Virus record (IMG/VR): IMGVR_UViG_3300044568_001171
Location: 1 to 26,548 of that record
Length of the DNA: 26,548 bases
Reading direction: 5' to 3' (one strand)
Source: a virus
The notes beneath the pieces were generated by a model that did no database searches, had not been told where the DNA came from, and saw only the letters and a list, made by a program, of their open reading frames with translations. The translations under genes were made by a program, and so were the position numbers. Every line of letters begins with the position of its first letter. The first letter of the stretch is position 1. Below, one piece after another: positions 11,306-20,555 of the stretch.

Positions 11306-12985
11306 ATGGACACACGATATAAAGAGTTGGAAACACTCATCAGTAAATTTATTAGGCGTTTACCCGACGACACAGAATACGAAAAGCGTTTAGAAGAAGA
11401 ACTAGAACTCATAGCCAAATTAGGCTTCGCCAAACACTTCCTCCGTGTAGTAGAAATACTAGATATAACCAAAGACATACCACACATGACTCGCGGTAGT
11501 GCGGGCAGTAGTTTGCTATGTTGGTTGCTTGGCATCAGTGATGTAGATCCTATCAAGGAAAACATACCACTGTCAAGATTTATGAATCCAAAACGTGATG
11601 ACTTACCAGACATTGATTTAGACTTCCCGCACTTTCAACAAGAAACGGTCATGAATCGTATATTTGATAAATGGAAAGGTCAGAGTGCCCGTGTTAGTAA
11701 CTATGTAACCTACAAGGAAAAAAGTGCGTTACGTGAGGCAGCAAAACGTTTCGGTGCTAAAGGCAAACTCAAACGCAATTTCAAACTAGAAGAAGTTGTA
11801 CCGGAGTTTGTTGAAGATGCTGAAAAACTAGCAAAAAAATTATTAGGTAAGAAACGCTGTATCAGCAAGCATTGCGGCGGCGTATTGATATTTGATAGAC
11901 CAGTACCTAAAAGCCTCATCAATGGCACTAATCAGATATTGCTTGACAAATATGAGATTGAAGATTTAGAACATTTCAAGATAGACATACTTGCCAATCG
12001 TGGACTATCGCAACTGTTTGAGATAGAGCCAAACATGAATTTATTAGACTATCCTGAATACGATGAAAAAACAGCAGAACTATTAGCGACTGGAAATGTG
12101 TTAGGTGTCACACAAGCAGAAAGTCCTGCTATGCGACGATTGCTAAAAGCGATAAAGCCTAAACGTAGAGAAGATTGTGTATTGGCTACGGCACTGATAA
12201 GACCAGTAGCGACACAAGGTCGTCGCAAAGCAAGTTTCTTCCGTGATTGGAGCAAGGACACATTTGATAATACGATAGTATTTGAAGATGATGCTATCAT
12301 ACTCATCAGCCAGTTGTTAGGTTGTAGCCAATATGAGGCAGATATGTGGCGTCGTGCGTTCGCTAAAAAGAATGAAGAAAAGATTTATGAGTTCATGCAA
12401 AAGATCGGCGACCATGAGCATAAAGAAGAGATATTCGCGGCACTACGTGAACTAAGCAATTTCGGACTATGCCGCGCACACGCTATCAACCTAGGAAGAT
12501 TGATATGGGCTATAGCATATCAGAAAGCACACAACCCGGAGAAGTTTTGGCGTGCTACATTGAAGCATTGTCAAGGCAGTTATAGCCGCTGGGTGTACCA
12601 CCATGAGGCTAAATTAGCGGGCGCGTTCCCAGTCACATATCAAGGCAATGAAGTCAACGAATTATTATCACAAGGACACTGGCATAGCGATAAGTTCTTA
12701 CCAGTATGTACCGAACTACGTAGACCGGGTGAAGTAGAGTTTTGTGGACTTGTTGCTAACTATCGTGTATTCAAGAGTGCGCCCAAACAATATATAACGT
12801 TCGTGACTATTGGTACGGGTAATGGTAAGTATTTGGATGTGATATTAGATCGTGCTGTATCGTTTCACGACCAACCTATATTATGGGGCGTGGGTAAGTT
12901 AGGATATAAAAATAACAGCGAGTATGTCACAGTAAATAAGCACAAGAGACTAAAACTAAAGGACTTACTCAATGCTAACCGCTAA
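11306..12985 (+). CDS. family C DNA polymerase core (DnaE-like), PHP domain missing
   Basis: At 559 aa this is about half the length of DnaE (1160 aa), and it starts near the palm. It shows RGSAGSSL (63-70) and PDIDLDF (101-107; D102 and D104 match E. coli D401/D403). HCGGVLI (188-194) and FKIDILA (223-229; D226 matches D555) follow. Further on are a GVTQAESPAMRRLL segment, ADMWRRAFAKKNEE and AHAINLGRLIWAIAY, all in DnaE order. An OB-fold-like stretch (EVEFCGLVANYRVF) follows, then the protein ends. The catalytic triad therefore looks intact, while the PHP domain and the C-terminal tau-binding region are absent. It is the first gene of the only plus-strand pair. It may be a second, specialised polymerase. 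Confidence 0.88.
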   Translation: MDTRYKELETLISKFIRRLPDDTEYEKRLEEELELIAKLGFAKHFLRVVEILDITKDIPHMTRGSAGSSLLCWLLGISDVDPIKENIPLSRFMNPKRDDLPDIDLDFPHFQQETVMNRIFDKWKGQSARVSNYVTYKEKSALREAAKRFGAKGKLKRNFKLEEVVPEFVEDAEKLAKKLLGKKRCISKHCGGVLIFDRPVPKSLINGTNQILLDKYEIEDLEHFKIDILANRGLSQLFEIEPNMNLLDYPEYDEKTAELLATGNVLGVTQAESPAMRRLLKAIKPKRREDCVLATALIRPVATQGRRKASFFRDWSKDTFDNTIVFEDDAIILISQLLGCSQYEADMWRRAFAKKNEEKIYEFMQKIGDHEHKEEIFAALRELSNFGLCRAHAINLGRLIWAIAYQKAHNPEKFWRATLKHCQGSYSRWVYHHEAKLAGAFPVTYQGNEVNELLSQGHWHSDKFLPVCTELRRPGEVEFCGLVANYRVFKSAPKQYITFVTIGTGNGKYLDVILDRAVSFHDQPILWGVGKLGYKNNSEYVTVNKHKRLKLKDLLNANR

Positions 12986-16242: not shown

Positions 16243-16420
16243 TAGTTTTTATATAATAATTACTAGGCATTTCAAGTTTTTGAATCGCATTTGCTATTTT
16301 CTTAGCAAAGTTATAGTCATAGGTGACCAATATGACTTTCTTAGTATTGGTCACCAAATAACGCACAGGTTGGTATGGAACTACCAGTGTCTCAACTATT
16401 TTGCTAGTGGATTTTCCCAT
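16238..16420 (-). CDS. small hypothetical basic protein, 60 aa
   Basis: This is a Lys-rich peptide with alternating strands and one helix (PVRYLVTNTKKVILVTYDYN, then FAKKIANAIQKLEM). The start overlaps the end of the coiled-coil membrane gene by 25 bases, and AGAAAG lies just upstream. Its stop abuts the late promoter at 16229. No family was recognised. It could be spurious, but it fills an otherwise empty 160-base space in the right frame and direction. Confidence 0.55.
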   Translation of the reverse strand: MGKSTSKIVETLVVPYQPVRYLVTNTKKVILVTYDYNFAKKIANAIQKLEMPSNYYIKTR

Positions 16421-16962
16421 GCTTTCTGTATTTTATCATCAACTTTCTTTTCCAATTCTTTTAATTTCTGATCCGTTTCACGTTCAATAGTACGCAATCT
16501 TGCGTTCATGTCACGGTCTGTGACACCCACGAATCCACGAACTTCTTTGTCAAGTTCACGGTTGCGTCTTTCTGCTGCATCAATGTCTGCTTGTAAACTA
16601 TCAATATCACCCTTTAGGTCTGTACGAACATCACGAATGATATCGTTGCTTTCGTCAACTAATACAGCAGCATTATCAATTTTCTGCTCAAGCTTAGTCA
16701 TGCGCTCTTGTATAGCTGACAAGTCGGGAGCGACATATTCCTGTATCTGTTGCTTCATATCCATGTAATCTTTATAGAACTCAAATGCTCCATAAAGTCC
16801 ACCAAGCACTGTTGATACGATACCTGCTGCTATCATCAATTTAGCAGGGGTGAAACTATAGCCACCAATACTGATGACGGTGTTTTCGCTCATATATTGT
16901 TCTTTGGCAGCTTCTAGATCGTCTATCTTGCTGTCAATATCTGTTTCATTCTTCTTTGGCAT
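16396..16962 (-). CDS. membrane-anchored coiled-coil protein, 188 aa
   Basis: A soluble N-terminus of about 40 residues precedes one transmembrane segment (KLMIAAGIVSTVLGGLYGAF, 41-60). A charged helical stalk from about 66 to 180 follows, with repeated heptads (IQERMTKLEQKIDNA, IDAAERRNRELDKEV, LKELEKKVDDKIQKA). No enzyme motif was seen. A GGAG site 6 bases before the ATG supports the start. It is the last gene of the envelope cassette with the 690-aa and 466-aa secreted proteins, 13 bases downstream of the former. It could serve as a membrane tether or scaffold for them (inference). Confidence 0.82.
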   Translation of the reverse strand: MPKKNETDIDSKIDDLEAAKEQYMSENTVISIGGYSFTPAKLMIAAGIVSTVLGGLYGAFEFYKDYMDMKQQIQEYVAPDLSAIQERMTKLEQKIDNAAVLVDESNDIIRDVRTDLKGDIDSLQADIDAAERRNRELDKEVRGFVGVTDRDMNARLRTIERETDQKLKELEKKVDDKIQKAWENPLAK

Positions 16963-16975
16963 TTATTTTCTCCGA

Positions 16976-19048
16976 TTACTTATATTGTTCTTCTACCATT
17001 TTCTTGTAAGTATCACTATTGCCCTTCTCAAGAAAATAGGCGCCACGAACATTATCTTTGTATACTACATTCTTGTAGATATCTTCTGGCTTATACCATA
17101 TATTGTTGTCATTCAACATAGCACTACGATAACTTGATACATCAGTATCACCACTCATAGCAGCGACGATACCTGATTGATCAGCATCCATGTAGTTCTT
17201 GTTGATCTCATCTTGTTGTTCTTTATTGGCAGCAACTACTTCTTCTGCTCTCTTTTCAGCATCACTCTTTTCGTCTTTGTTATTACCGAGCACGCCCAGT
17301 ATTTCAAGATTAGTAGTGTTTGGTACAACATTGAAAGCGTTTGCGAGATTTGGATCATTTTGTATTGTTACCTTTTCATCTTCTTCAAAAGCACTAACAC
17401 TTGTATCTTCTGATTTTTGTTCTATCTGTGCTAAAACATTTTGTACAAACTCAACATCATCAGTTGAAGTATCAGTCGGCTTGATATCTATGTTCATGAT
17501 ATCAGTAAAACTATCAATAGTATCTACTGAACCATCAACACTTTGTTCTATGTTATTTGCTACGACTTCTTCAACAACTGTTTCAACTTTATTTTCTTCG
17601 GTCATTATCTCAAAATCACTACCATCATTATCAGCAACACTATTATCAATGACATTATCTATAGTGATATTCTCAATAACACTATCATTTGATTTAGTTT
17701 CACCACTTGCCATAGCGATACTTTCAGCCTGGCTTATGCTATCACTTGCGCTTTGTTCTGTTTGTGATTGTGTCTGAGCCATGCTAACATTGTTTAGTTG
17801 ACGACCTGTCTCAAGTAGATCATTGGCACTGTCAATACTATTATCTGCTACAGTTTCATCGTTATCAATTTTATCTTGTTCTTTGGTTTCAACTTCGTCA
17901 TCAACAGTTGATGTGTTTGTTCTTGCTGTAGTAGTTGATAATGTTTCTGTAGTTGCCATATTATTACTTGCTGCTGCTTCTGCTACGCTCAATGCCAATT
18001 CAAGTGTATTTTTACTAATGCTATCGGCAAGTATCTGCGCTTTTTCTTCGTCTGTCAATTCACGATAAGTGACTTCTCTTTCATTAGTTTCTGCTGGTGT
18101 TTCTTCAACAGTAGTTTCTTCGTCTTGTAATAGTTGTTCTAACTCTGTCTCATCAATAGTTTCATCTGCTACAAATACCTCTTCTTCCTCATCAGCAATG
18201 ACTTCTGTGCCATCATCGCTGCCATCATCACTACCTGTGTTATCATCATCAATAGCAGTTTCATCCGCTAACATCTCTGCTACTTCTTCTGGATCACTAT
18301 AGTCTATGATACCATCATCATATAGGTCAAGTGTATTGATAATACAACTTGGGTCATATGGATTCAATGTACAGTCAACGCCTATCACTGGATCGGGTGC
18401 TTCAAGATAACCTATACGAAAATTCACACGATCAATCGATGGACCATAATATCCACCCCAAAACCCTGTGTCTATTCCATAAAAACTAATCACAGCATTG
18501 GTAAACAATTCATCTGACACTTGCGAACTATACCAACCTACTGGCTTATAGCCTAAATTGTTGATTCCAGGATCACCTGCTACGAAATAGTCTGGACCTA
18601 TAGGTATGAAATCAAATACTCCCGCTTCGCCGCTAGCAGTGAAAAATTTGACACTTGCGCCAAATAAGTCCATTGGTCCGTCTGGGTCCTCACAAAAACC
18701 ACCTATGCTGTTATTACAATTCATTCTATAGAAAAAGTCAAAATAAAACTCAAAACTGTTTGTGTTGTATATGCTCAAATCTATATCTGTCTGTAGGATA
18801 GCCCCTTGATAAGAAAATTTGAAACATTGCCCCTGATTTGATAATCCACCACATCCAGGTTGTATGCTGCCACCCGTGGCAGGTGGTGATGTGCTGGTCC
18901 ATCCTTGTGGGATCGTGCCCACTTGACCATTTTCAAAACTAAAATCAGGCACTAGATTACCAGTCTGTGTAGCACCAGCATAGGGATTTTCCTGCCCATA
19001 GGCCTCAGGAAATAATAACAATGCTAATACTAATAATAATCTAATCAT
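16976..19048 (-). CDS. secreted acidic protein with jelly-roll-like N-terminal domain, 690 aa
   Basis: The N-terminus MIRLLLVLALLLFPEAYG is a clear Sec signal peptide with cleavage expected before QENPYAG. Residues 31-215 begin NLVPDFSFENG and IPQGW, as in CBM4/9-type carbohydrate-binding jelly-rolls, and contain several cysteines and aromatic residues. Residues about 235-320 are strongly Asp/Glu-rich. The long middle is low-complexity Ser/Thr/Asp/Asn. A conserved-looking C-terminus is rich in Tyr, Lys and Asn (NIWYKPEDIYKN, then YKKMVEEQYK). It overlaps the N/T-rich gene stop as ATGA. Carbohydrate binding at the cell surface or on the virion is possible. No catalytic motif was seen, and the family of the whole protein is not known to me. 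Confidence 0.85.
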   Translation of the reverse strand: MIRLLLVLALLLFPEAYGQENPYAGATQTGNLVPDFSFENGQVGTIPQGWTSTSPPATGGSIQPGCGGLSNQGQCFKFSYQGAILQTDIDLSIYNTNSFEFYFDFFYRMNCNNSIGGFCEDPDGPMDLFGASVKFFTASGEAGVFDFIPIGPDYFVAGDPGINNLGYKPVGWYSSQVSDELFTNAVISFYGIDTGFWGGYYGPSIDRVNFRIGYLEAPDPVIGVDCTLNPYDPSCIINTLDLYDDGIIDYSDPEEVAEMLADETAIDDDNTGSDDGSDDGTEVIADEEEEVFVADETIDETELEQLLQDEETTVEETPAETNEREVTYRELTDEEKAQILADSISKNTLELALSVAEAAASNNMATTETLSTTTARTNTSTVDDEVETKEQDKIDNDETVADNSIDSANDLLETGRQLNNVSMAQTQSQTEQSASDSISQAESIAMASGETKSNDSVIENITIDNVIDNSVADNDGSDFEIMTEENKVETVVEEVVANNIEQSVDGSVDTIDSFTDIMNIDIKPTDTSTDDVEFVQNVLAQIEQKSEDTSVSAFEEDEKVTIQNDPNLANAFNVVPNTTNLEILGVLGNNKDEKSDAEKRAEEVVAANKEQQDEINKNYMDADQSGIVAAMSGDTDVSSYRSAMLNDNNIWYKPEDIYKNVVYKDNVRGAYFLEKGNSDTYKKMVEEQYK

Positions 19049-20445
19049 CCTACTGGATCTGCCTCTGGCATACTTTCAGTTTTCTTGGCTTCAGTTTCAC
19101 CCTTATCACCAAAAATACTTCTAAACCAGCCCTTCTTTGTATCAGGACGCTCTTCACTATTCTCAGTCCATTGTTGAGTTGCTTCACGACCGATCTTACC
19201 CATATAAGGGCAAGGTGTACCTGCCATCTCCATAGCCTTGAACACTCTTTCATCTTGGCACATCAATGACACTGCTGCGACCTTCATGCCCATATCATAT
19301 AATGTTTTTGATAGTTTCAATCTTTCGCAGTTCATATCTCTGACCGCCTTACCTGCGCTCATACCAATAACTTGTGTCTGTACTGCACCACTGACACCAC
19401 TCACGCAGACATCTTGGCTATAAGTGCTGATCATTGGGGCTATGGCACTTGCCGGTGGAGCCTTGATCTCTTGCTCTACCTTAGTGATGTTTTCATTACG
19501 ATTGATGTTTGTGTTAGTGTTTTCTGTCTTTACATTGCTCTGGCTAGTGCTTTCGCTTTTGTTCACATTCTCGTTCTTGTTCACAGCAGTGCTTGTGCTA
19601 ACATTCACATTGTTATTATTGTTGGTAGCAGTACTCACATTCTCGTTTTTATTCAAGTTTGTGTTAGTGCTGGTACTGACATTATTGTTATTGTTAGTAT
19701 TGACGCTGGTAGTGTTATTCGTGTTGACATTATTTGAGTTGATGTTGGTGTTGTTATTATTGTTATTATTATAAGTAACCTCACCACTCATGTTATTGTT
19801 GTTATTATTTGTGTTTGTGTTTGTGCTTGTAGATGTGTTGATGTTGTTATTGGTATTGTTGCTTGTGGTCGTGTTCACATTGTTGTTATTATTAGTAACC
19901 GTACCGCTCTGTATATTCAAGTTTGTATTTGTGTTTGTATTATTGTTTGTGTTTGTGTTACTGCTTGTAGTCGTATTGACATTATTGTTATTGTTAGTCA
20001 ATGTACCACTTTGGATATTGTTATTTGTGTTGACATTATTGTTAGTGCTATTCACAGTGCTTGTGTTCACATTTGTATTTGTGTTAGTACTGGTCGTAGC
20101 ATTATTATTGTTATAAGTCACAGTACCACTCATGACATTGTTGTTAGTGTTGGTATTTGTGCTTGTAGTCGTATTCGTGTTTATATTCGTGTTGGTGTTA
20201 TCACTAGTACTTGTTGAAGTATTAGTGTTTGTATTTTGATTGACATTAGTAGCAGTACCACTTTGAATATTATAGTTTGTATTAGTATTCGTATTAGTGT
20301 TATCTGTGGTACTTGTAGTATTGCTTGTTGTTGTGACATTGCTTGTAGTATCTACAGTTGAAACCGTAGTTGTCTGTGCCATGGCCACGGTGATCATGCC
20401 AGTACTAAGCACTGCCAATAGCAAGAGCTTATCGGATCTAAACAT
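19045..20445 (-). CDS. secreted Asn/Thr/Ser-repeat protein with cysteine-containing C-terminal domain, 466 aa
   Basis: A signal peptide (MFRSDKLLLLAVLSTGMITVAMA) precedes about 290 residues made almost only of Asn, Thr, Ser and Val (25-310). Within them a short [IVM]-x-SG-[TE] core followed by a T-[NY]-NNN run recurs with SG at 62, 106, 146, 180 and 220, a period near 40. From about 330 a normal globular domain begins, with four cysteines (C347, C373, C396, C412) and the segments VQTQVIGMSAGKAVRD and LYDMGMKVAAVSLMC. The tail is charged. The composition recalls beta-solenoid or amyloid-like surface proteins. The four cysteines suit a periplasmic or extracellular site. It leads the envelope cassette behind a late-type box and a long leader. 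Function unknown. Confidence 0.85.
   Translation of the reverse strand: MFRSDKLLLLAVLSTGMITVAMAQTTTVSTVDTTSNVTTTSNTTSTTDNTNTNTNTNYNIQSGTATNVNQNTNTNTSTSTSDNTNTNINTNTTTSTNTNTNNNVMSGTVTYNNNNATTSTNTNTNVNTSTVNSTNNNVNTNNNIQSGTLTNNNNNVNTTTSSNTNTNNNTNTNTNLNIQSGTVTNNNNNVNTTTSNNTNNNINTSTSTNTNTNNNNNNMSGEVTYNNNNNNNTNINSNNVNTNNTTSVNTNNNNNVSTSTNTNLNKNENVSTATNNNNNVNVSTSTAVNKNENVNKSESTSQSNVKTENTNTNINRNENITKVEQEIKAPPASAIAPMISTYSQDVCVSGVSGAVQTQVIGMSAGKAVRDMNCERLKLSKTLYDMGMKVAAVSLMCQDERVFKAMEMAGTPCPYMGKIGREATQQWTENSEERPDTKKGWFRSIFGDKGETEAKKTESMPEADPVG
19516..20376 (-). repeat. low-complexity Asn/Thr/Ser coding repeats
   Basis: This DNA encodes residues 24-310 of the secreted protein. On the plus strand it is a run of GTT/GTG/ATT triplet blocks. 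Five imperfect modules of 34-44 codons can be seen by their SG core, and a Lys/Asn/Glu variant (NKNENV, NRNENI) appears three times near the 3' end. Such tracts can change length by slippage, so assembly errors or strain variation are likely here. Confidence 0.85.
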
Positions 20446-20547: not shown

Positions 20548-20555
20548 TATTTATG
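20548..20555 (-). promoter_or_regulatory. candidate late-type promoter (CATAAATA) of the envelope cassette
   Basis: CATAAATA, followed by ATACTAT, resembles the T4 late consensus and lies about 103 bases before the ATG at 20445. A TTGACC box 11 bases upstream could also pair with a weak TACTAT -10. The 130-base gap 20446-20575 otherwise holds an inverted repeat (CTATCC/GGATAG, 20504-20532) and the G-rich leader. Confidence 0.5.

Follow-up and report, generated by a model that had tools for sequence, protein, structure and literature searches.

A three-gene phage cassette of two exported proteins and a membrane-anchored coiled coil, repeatedly found in lysis modules and with a probable action on the host envelope at cell burst

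INTRODUCTION

In T7-like genomes the spanin genes Rz and Rz1 lie between the holin gene and the large terminase gene, and in phage T4 the antiholin RI acts with its holin T. Approximately 13% of surveyed phages have no recognisable spanin, and the opening of the outer membrane in those phages is an open question (PMC6139136). Marine 'carbohydrate binding' proteins (CBP) are the commonest identifiable genes of metaviromic islands and have been read as receptor-binding candidates (PMC3909814), and curli (type VIII secretion) genes are known in pelagiphages (PMC7029224, PMC9599517, PMC9004378).

Here we analysed a 26.5-kb virus record, the whole of which is called the window below. It belongs to a T4-like phage as judged by gene content, and encodes a family-B DNA polymerase (9623-6918, minus strand) together with other replication genes. 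A preliminary description had drawn attention to three consecutive genes, here named A, B and C, and we found no description of this trio as a unit in the open-access literature searched.

RESULTS

Layout of the cassette

The three genes lie on the minus strand in the order A, B, C, with a gap of 13 nt between B and C. The three-gene cassette, signal peptides, repeat, ATGA overlap and membrane-anchored coiled coil reported in the preliminary description are all present, as follows.

20548-20555, minus strand: CATAAATA, a T4-late-like box ~103 nt upstream of the A start codon, not statistically enriched
19045-20445, minus strand: gene A, 466-aa ORF, exported protein with an Asn/Thr/Ser spacer and a four-Cys domain, PHROG 20531
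20374-20445, minus strand: A signal peptide, residues 1-24, from the sequence
19456-20373, minus strand: A Asn/Thr/Ser spacer, residues 25-330, with a degenerate repeat of ~40 residues, from composition and TRF
19141-19455, minus strand: A conserved four-Cys domain, ~residues 331-435, from alignment, with a predicted beta hairpin and helices
19045-19048, minus strand: ATGA overlap between the stop codon of A and the start codon of B, from the sequence
16976-19048, minus strand: gene B, 690-aa ORF, exported multidomain protein
18995-19048, minus strand: B signal peptide, residues 1-18, from the sequence
18401-18976, minus strand: B N-terminal jelly-roll domain, ~residues 25-216, FBA / Fbs1-type-like by profile and predicted fold
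17429-18328, minus strand: B low-complexity linker, ~residues 241-540, acidic here, an acidity not common to all lineages
16979-17188, minus strand: B conserved C-terminal domain, ~residues 621-690, with the motif WYKPEDIY...DN, from comparison with relatives
16396-16962, minus strand: gene C, 188-aa ORF, membrane-anchored coiled coil
16783-16839, minus strand: C transmembrane segment, residues 42-60, followed by the coiled coil, predicted
16405-16413, minus strand: C C-terminal Asn-Pro-Leu motif, residues 184-186, from the sequence

A late-type box had also been placed before the set. The CATAAATA box does stand there, but the single exact TATAAATA of the window is at 16236-16229 (minus strand), downstream of A-B-C, and the window shows no enrichment of ATAAATA (6 found versus 13 expected by shuffling).

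Three other genes of the window were recorded. Among the few on the opposite strand is one (11306-12985, plus strand) for a 559-aa protein resembling the bacterial DNA polymerase III alpha subunit, with NTPase/palm (PF07733, E 8e-43) and finger (PF17657, E 9.5e-17) domains; it is encoded in the same record as the family-B polymerase and is shorter than the matched PHROG DNA polymerase profile (1190 positions). A 205-aa PP-loop ATPase (14083-13466, minus strand; PF01171, E 1.3e-32) resembles tRNA(Ile)-lysidine synthase. Downstream of the cassette, a 408-aa protein (15976-14750, minus strand) carries the zinc-peptidase-like motif HELVHVRQHE and gave no match in a Pfam search; a shorter relative of 127 aa comes after the cassette in locus L140.

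The three proteins

Protein A begins with a signal peptide (MFRSDKLLLLAVLSTGMITVAMAQ), and a signal-peptide-like N-terminus was found by a crude rule in 126 of the 137 distinct A proteins. Residues 25-330 are 75% N+T+S (N 38%, T 27%, S 10%), with a degenerate period of ~40 residues marked by SG[TE] at residues 62, 106, 146, 180 and 220 and detected by TRF as a period of 120 bp. The length of this spacer is not conserved. Since it spans about 7 to 415 residues among intact cassettes, the Asn/Thr/Ser repeat of the window is one extreme of a variable-length linker and not the essence of the cassette; a view of the repeat as its working part finds no support. The conserved part of A is the domain of ~100 aa that follows the repeat, in which four cysteines are invariant in the alignment. 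Its prediction combined a low-confidence hairpin with confident helices (mean pLDDT 73). Profile and fold searches against the PDB gave no relative of this domain (best Foldseek E 1.7), and a search of predicted viral structures recovered members of the family itself and, as a weak match, a protein from Achromobacter phage phiAxp-2. We dropped the idea that the hairpin forms a beta-barrel pore because the strand residues have no consistent alternation over the alignment and the confidence of the hairpin is low. PHROGs placed A in phrog_20531, a family of unknown function, and no Pfam family, curlin included, matched A up to E 0.1. The 'OmpA family' label on A of Roseobacter phage CRP-810 was set aside, as the protein shows the A domain alone, with no peptidoglycan-binding tail in view.

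A signal-peptide-like N-terminus is likewise present in 116 of 123 distinct B proteins. In the window protein it is followed by the predicted jelly roll (AF2 mean pLDDT 79.5), which matched FBXO6 in a PDB profile search (E 2.6e-7) and the Fbs2/Man3GlcNAc2 complex in Foldseek (E 6.7e-8); after Fbs1/Fbs2 the fold search lists cyclases of the same fold, tailspike domains and carbohydrate-binding modules. Pfam FBA was detected in 3 of 39 B relatives (best E 1.4e-4); the window protein searched on its own gave no FBA match. Judged from profile search and fold prediction, the B N-terminus is a sugar-binding-type jelly roll resembling the glycan-binding FBA domain of Fbs1/Fbs2. The jelly-roll-like N-terminus of the preliminary description is borne out in this way and fits its suggestion that the set binds glycans; structure prediction gave B this assignment and left the Cys domain of A with no relative among solved structures.

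Many B relatives carry a nidogen-like (NIDO) domain in place of the FBA-like N-terminus. N-termini of the NIDO type match the RemA adhesin (8gl6, E 3.6e-12), with Pfam NIDO in 6 of 29 relatives. The exchange occurs between close relatives. When the window was compared with locus L116, C was 91% and B residues 541-690 were 72% identical, as against 28% for B residues 20-235, one of the two N-termini being FBA-like and the other NIDO-like. Repeats of the form C..NPL..C.GY were seen in B of many relatives, and a PHROGs search with B gave no match.

A single N-proximal membrane segment was predicted in 100 of 129 distinct C proteins. The motif [NDS]P[LM] followed by at most six residues ends 123 of the 129, in a set whose seeds were partly picked by this motif. 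The 'lysozyme' labels on C of phages CRP-207 and CRP-810 were rejected, as both proteins are membrane-anchored coiled coils ending in Asn-Pro-Leu. In most relatives, A and B have the appearance of exported proteins and C that of a membrane-anchored one, in agreement with the envelope-directed character first proposed for the set. The statement that no known phage function fits also stands, Pfam, PHROGs, PADLOC and NCBIfam having given none: an NCBIfam search with the cassette proteins returned nothing above the cut-off, and a known anti-phage defence system was discarded after PADLOC gave weak coiled-coil matches for C and one chance-level match for a B protein.

A, B and C form a conserved unit

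Scans of viral contigs returned at least 594 relatives with the A seed and at least 593 with the C seed. All three genes were called in 113 loci, with no exception in order or strand; the counted loci are related to one another, so that these and the following counts are not independent events. A and B overlap in 102 of the 115 loci where they adjoin, and the distance between B and C is at most 30 nt in 87 of 91. Loci anchored on C, with at least 4.5 kb upstream, had B upstream in 50 of 51 and a called A in 46 of 51; in the five others A is apparently hidden by an antisense ORF call (L155 and L185 were inspected). Of 38 viral loci anchored on A, all had B and 36 had C. A-B-C is a conserved unit, as the preliminary description had supposed; the outcome that it had named as contrary to its proposal, a failure of the three genes to occur together in related genomes, was looked for and did not arise, and inspection of the neighbourhood of the Cys domain, which it had proposed, found B and C beside A in most loci and the cassette often in lysis modules.

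All three genes are under purifying selection. Comparison of the window with loci L105 and L103, relatives of 91-97% amino-acid identity, gave dN/dS values of ~0.05 for C, 0.12 for A and 0.19 for B. C is the best conserved of the three, and its membrane segment is unusually well conserved. In the same comparison dS shifts within 16398-20445, from 0.03-0.07 in the A spacer and B linker to ~0.6 in the A Cys domain, ~1.1 in the B N-terminus and ~0.9 in C. These jumps suggest recombination with breakpoints in the linkers; we dropped the shift as a trait specific to the cassette, the whole genome being equally mosaic in dS.

By tblastn, the A Cys domain was detected in ten annotated phages that differ widely in genome type, spanning SAR11 phages of the podo, sipho and myo types, a phage of the Autographiviridae and a roseophage. 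The order A, B, C is kept in most of these ten loci, sometimes with small genes intervening before C. HTVC115P has its C gene several genes beyond B, and the middle protein of CRP-207 and CRP-810 is short, with no recognised B tail. N4-like Achromobacter phages carry the A domain with no evident adjoining B and C. Many relatives of freshwater type have an additional gene between B and C (147 aa; L106:6458-6901) or after C (172 aa; L184:8635-9153), each encoding a C-terminal membrane segment. Burkholderiales (Variovorax and others) also encode the A domain, on chromosomes or megaplasmids and in a small conserved locus. Apart from the seed bin, 2 of 377 Gammaproteobacteria had a bacterial homologue, as did 6 of 301 genomes of one family, with uninformative neighbours, and matches in the genome scans were mostly MAG contigs, probably of phage origin.

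The cassette recurs in lysis modules

Phage lysozyme (PF00959) is encoded at most eight genes from the cassette in 40 loci and a GH19-type protein in 17. Neighbour clustering also found several holin-like membrane proteins near the cassette, 'holin-like' being a designation that we give to small membrane proteins from PHROGs without assigned function. Rz- or Rz1-like proteins occur together with A-B-C in 39 loci. In 74 of the 185 loci, a set with many short contigs, at least one lysis marker lies within eight genes. The clearest module is that of locus L124, whose C is 81% identical to the window C and whose genes run holin-like, GH19-type, A, B, C, holin-like, Rz-like, Rz1-like. A-B-C is inside a lysis module in many lineages. 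In the window itself, neither a lysozyme nor a spanin was found near the cassette.

Among the annotated phages, MedDCM-S28-C10 (Autographiviridae) has A-B-C after the tail-fibre genes, between a holin-like protein and the terminase genes, the place taken by Rz and Rz1 in T7-like genomes, and in Baldr and HTVC202P the cassette directly precedes the terminase gene; in HTVC202P it lies away from the M15 peptidase gene. Scanning the sense strand for lipoprotein ORFs gave no plausible candidate in Baldr, HTVC202P, MedDCM-S28-C10 or 49 kb of HTVC023P, an absence that is suggestive only, as the strict pattern missed an o-spanin-like protein of locus L041. The same filter picked up o-spanin-like ORFs in L120 and L124, and it gave no match in the window. 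A and B themselves have signal peptides of the cleavable type with no lipobox cysteine.

DISCUSSION

Our analysis indicates that A-B-C probably acts on the host envelope at cell burst. The best reading of the computed gene order, export and anchor signals, B domain types and lysis-module position, favoured here but still tentative, is a late complex that crosses the envelope and helps to breach its outer part at lysis. The products would form a late, co-translated complex of three proteins spanning the Gram-negative envelope, with C anchored in the inner membrane and its coiled coil crossing the periplasm. The conserved B C-terminus, the A Cys domain, or both would dock on the end of C; the variable lectin-like N-terminus of B would grip glycans of the outer envelope, and A, with its variable polar spacer and disulfide-type domain, would bridge or cluster the complex. 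After the action of holin and endolysin, the complex would disrupt or release the outer layer. Late expression, docking, the glycan target and disruption of the outer envelope are steps that we infer. The role would be accessory where Rz/Rz1 are present, and in the SAR11 phages with no visible lipoprotein the complex could do the job of a spanin. The missing lipobox of A and B, the distance of the cassette from the M15 peptidase gene in HTVC202P and the lack of a lysozyme or spanin close to it in the window speak against this reading.

With canonical spanins accompanying it in 39 loci, the cassette is no universal spanin substitute. This coexistence leaves an accessory role, a glycan-directed role or control of timing. 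A glycan-directed role could consist in loosening the outer polysaccharide layer or in masking receptors on the dying cell and its debris. The latter leads to the main rival explanation, receptor masking or superinfection exclusion, in which, late in infection, B held through C and A would bind to glycans or receptors on the surface of the infected cell and its debris, keeping progeny and competing phages from adsorbing. We consider this explanation unlikely but serious. B is exported and lectin-like, its N-terminal domain is swapped among close relatives such as the window and L116, which is more expected for a changing ligand than for a pure lysis protein, and the set follows the tail-fibre genes in MedDCM-S28-C10; 'putative carbohydrate binding' genes are moreover the commonest identifiable class of marine phage metaviromic islands (PMC3909814). 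However, the cassette shows no means of export across the outer membrane, C would tie the complex to the inner membrane, and exclusion needs no repeated embedding among holin, endolysin and spanin genes. The lysis-module position in many relatives moves the likely role from coating the host surface or blocking other phages, as proposed in the preliminary description, towards lysis, receptor masking being the less probable reading. Both the lysis complex and receptor masking predict late localisation in the envelope.

The position in lysis modules, often beside holin-like proteins, and the strong conservation of C would also suit control of lysis timing, with C binding a holin and A/B serving as a periplasmic sensor, functionally like T4 RI and holin T. 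Such timing control appears improbable, since we found no sequence relation to known antiholins and the size and multidomain build of the proteins are far above those of known antiholins. A virion-associated receptor-binding module, as inferred for the marine CBP of metaviromic islands (PMC3909814), would account for the high variability and for a sugar-binding fold with Foldseek matches that include tailspike domains, but signal peptides on A and B and an anchor on C are unexpected for tail proteins assembled in the cytoplasm. For Achromobacter phage JWDelta, low-depth fingerprinting is reported to show one structural band from outside the cluster, that of the Big_2 protein gp20, and the A relative goes unnamed in those passages; we regard a virion role as improbable too. 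An extracellular fibre or aggregation system, a curli-like 'sibling capture', is very improbable, for although A is exported and Asn/Thr/Ser-rich and pelagiphages are known to carry curli genes, CsgG was found in 0 of 20 cassette-bearing records, several of them fragments (control genomes were positive), A has no Pfam match to any family, and the repeat is dispensable, down to ~10 residues in full cassettes, which leaves a curli-type amyloid, and the amyloid-like fibre formerly suggested for the repeat, unsupported.

Returning to the lysis complex, it is possible, if on the unlikely side, that the cassette represents a previously unrecognised class, a lectin-headed, three-protein, trans-envelope breaching machine built on a new Cys domain, which would work beside or instead of spanins in aquatic phages of Gram-negative bacteria and whose exchangeable head would match the outer-envelope glycans of the host. 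The cassette is abundant in aquatic phages, SAR11 phages among them, and recurs in lysis modules. A lysis role, if true, would give a concrete answer to part of the gap posed by spanin-less phages; receptor masking, if true, would constitute a widespread exclusion device. On either reading, a gene class earlier taken for a host-recognition protein of the virion would become an envelope protein of the infected cell.

Comparison with known systems

The Burkholderiales proteins with the A domain share the signal peptide, a polar low-complexity stretch and the same Cys domain, but their partners are an exported protein of ~230 aa rich in Ser/Ala/Gly, an exported protein of ~110 aa and a response regulator. 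In most of the loci L205, L206, L207, L208, L209 and L188 the regulator is of LuxR type and follows the A-domain gene and its two exported partners. The FBA domain of Fbs1/Fbs2 (FBXO2/FBXO6), F-box proteins that recognise sugars, resembles the B N-terminus by profile and predicted fold, whereas Fbs proteins function in a eukaryotic, cytosolic ubiquitin-ligase context, and jelly rolls match promiscuously. The likeness of B to the NIDO-containing N-terminus of the cell-surface adhesin RemA is limited to one region.

The type VIII secretion (curli) genes of pelagiphages resemble A-B-C in encoding exported envelope proteins in SAR11 phages, with a low-complexity exported protein among them, but A-B-C has no CsgG or curlin match. 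HTVC008M has curli genes (L222:7562-13807) and no A match, and Mosig (L005) has A-B-C and no CsgG match; the two SAR11 myophages possibly carry alternative envelope cassettes. The comparison with marine CBP runs through one gene, B of MedDCM-S28-C10 (BAQ94057.1), which is annotated 'Putative carbohydrate binding domain containing protein'. Like CBP, this gene is variable and lies near tail-fibre and terminase genes. What sets B apart is its signal peptide, together with constant partners that are exported or membrane-bound.

The Rz/Rz1 spanins share with A-B-C the late position in lysis modules, periplasmic cysteines and overlapping genes, and C has the predicted topology of an i-spanin, with an N-proximal membrane segment and a periplasmic coiled coil. 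In contrast to Rz/Rz1, A-B-C has no outer-membrane lipoprotein, consists of three large proteins of which one is lectin-like, and sits with genuine Rz/Rz1-like pairs in 39 loci. It is not the sole system for disrupting the outer membrane in those 39 loci, and possibly is so in four SAR11-type phages.
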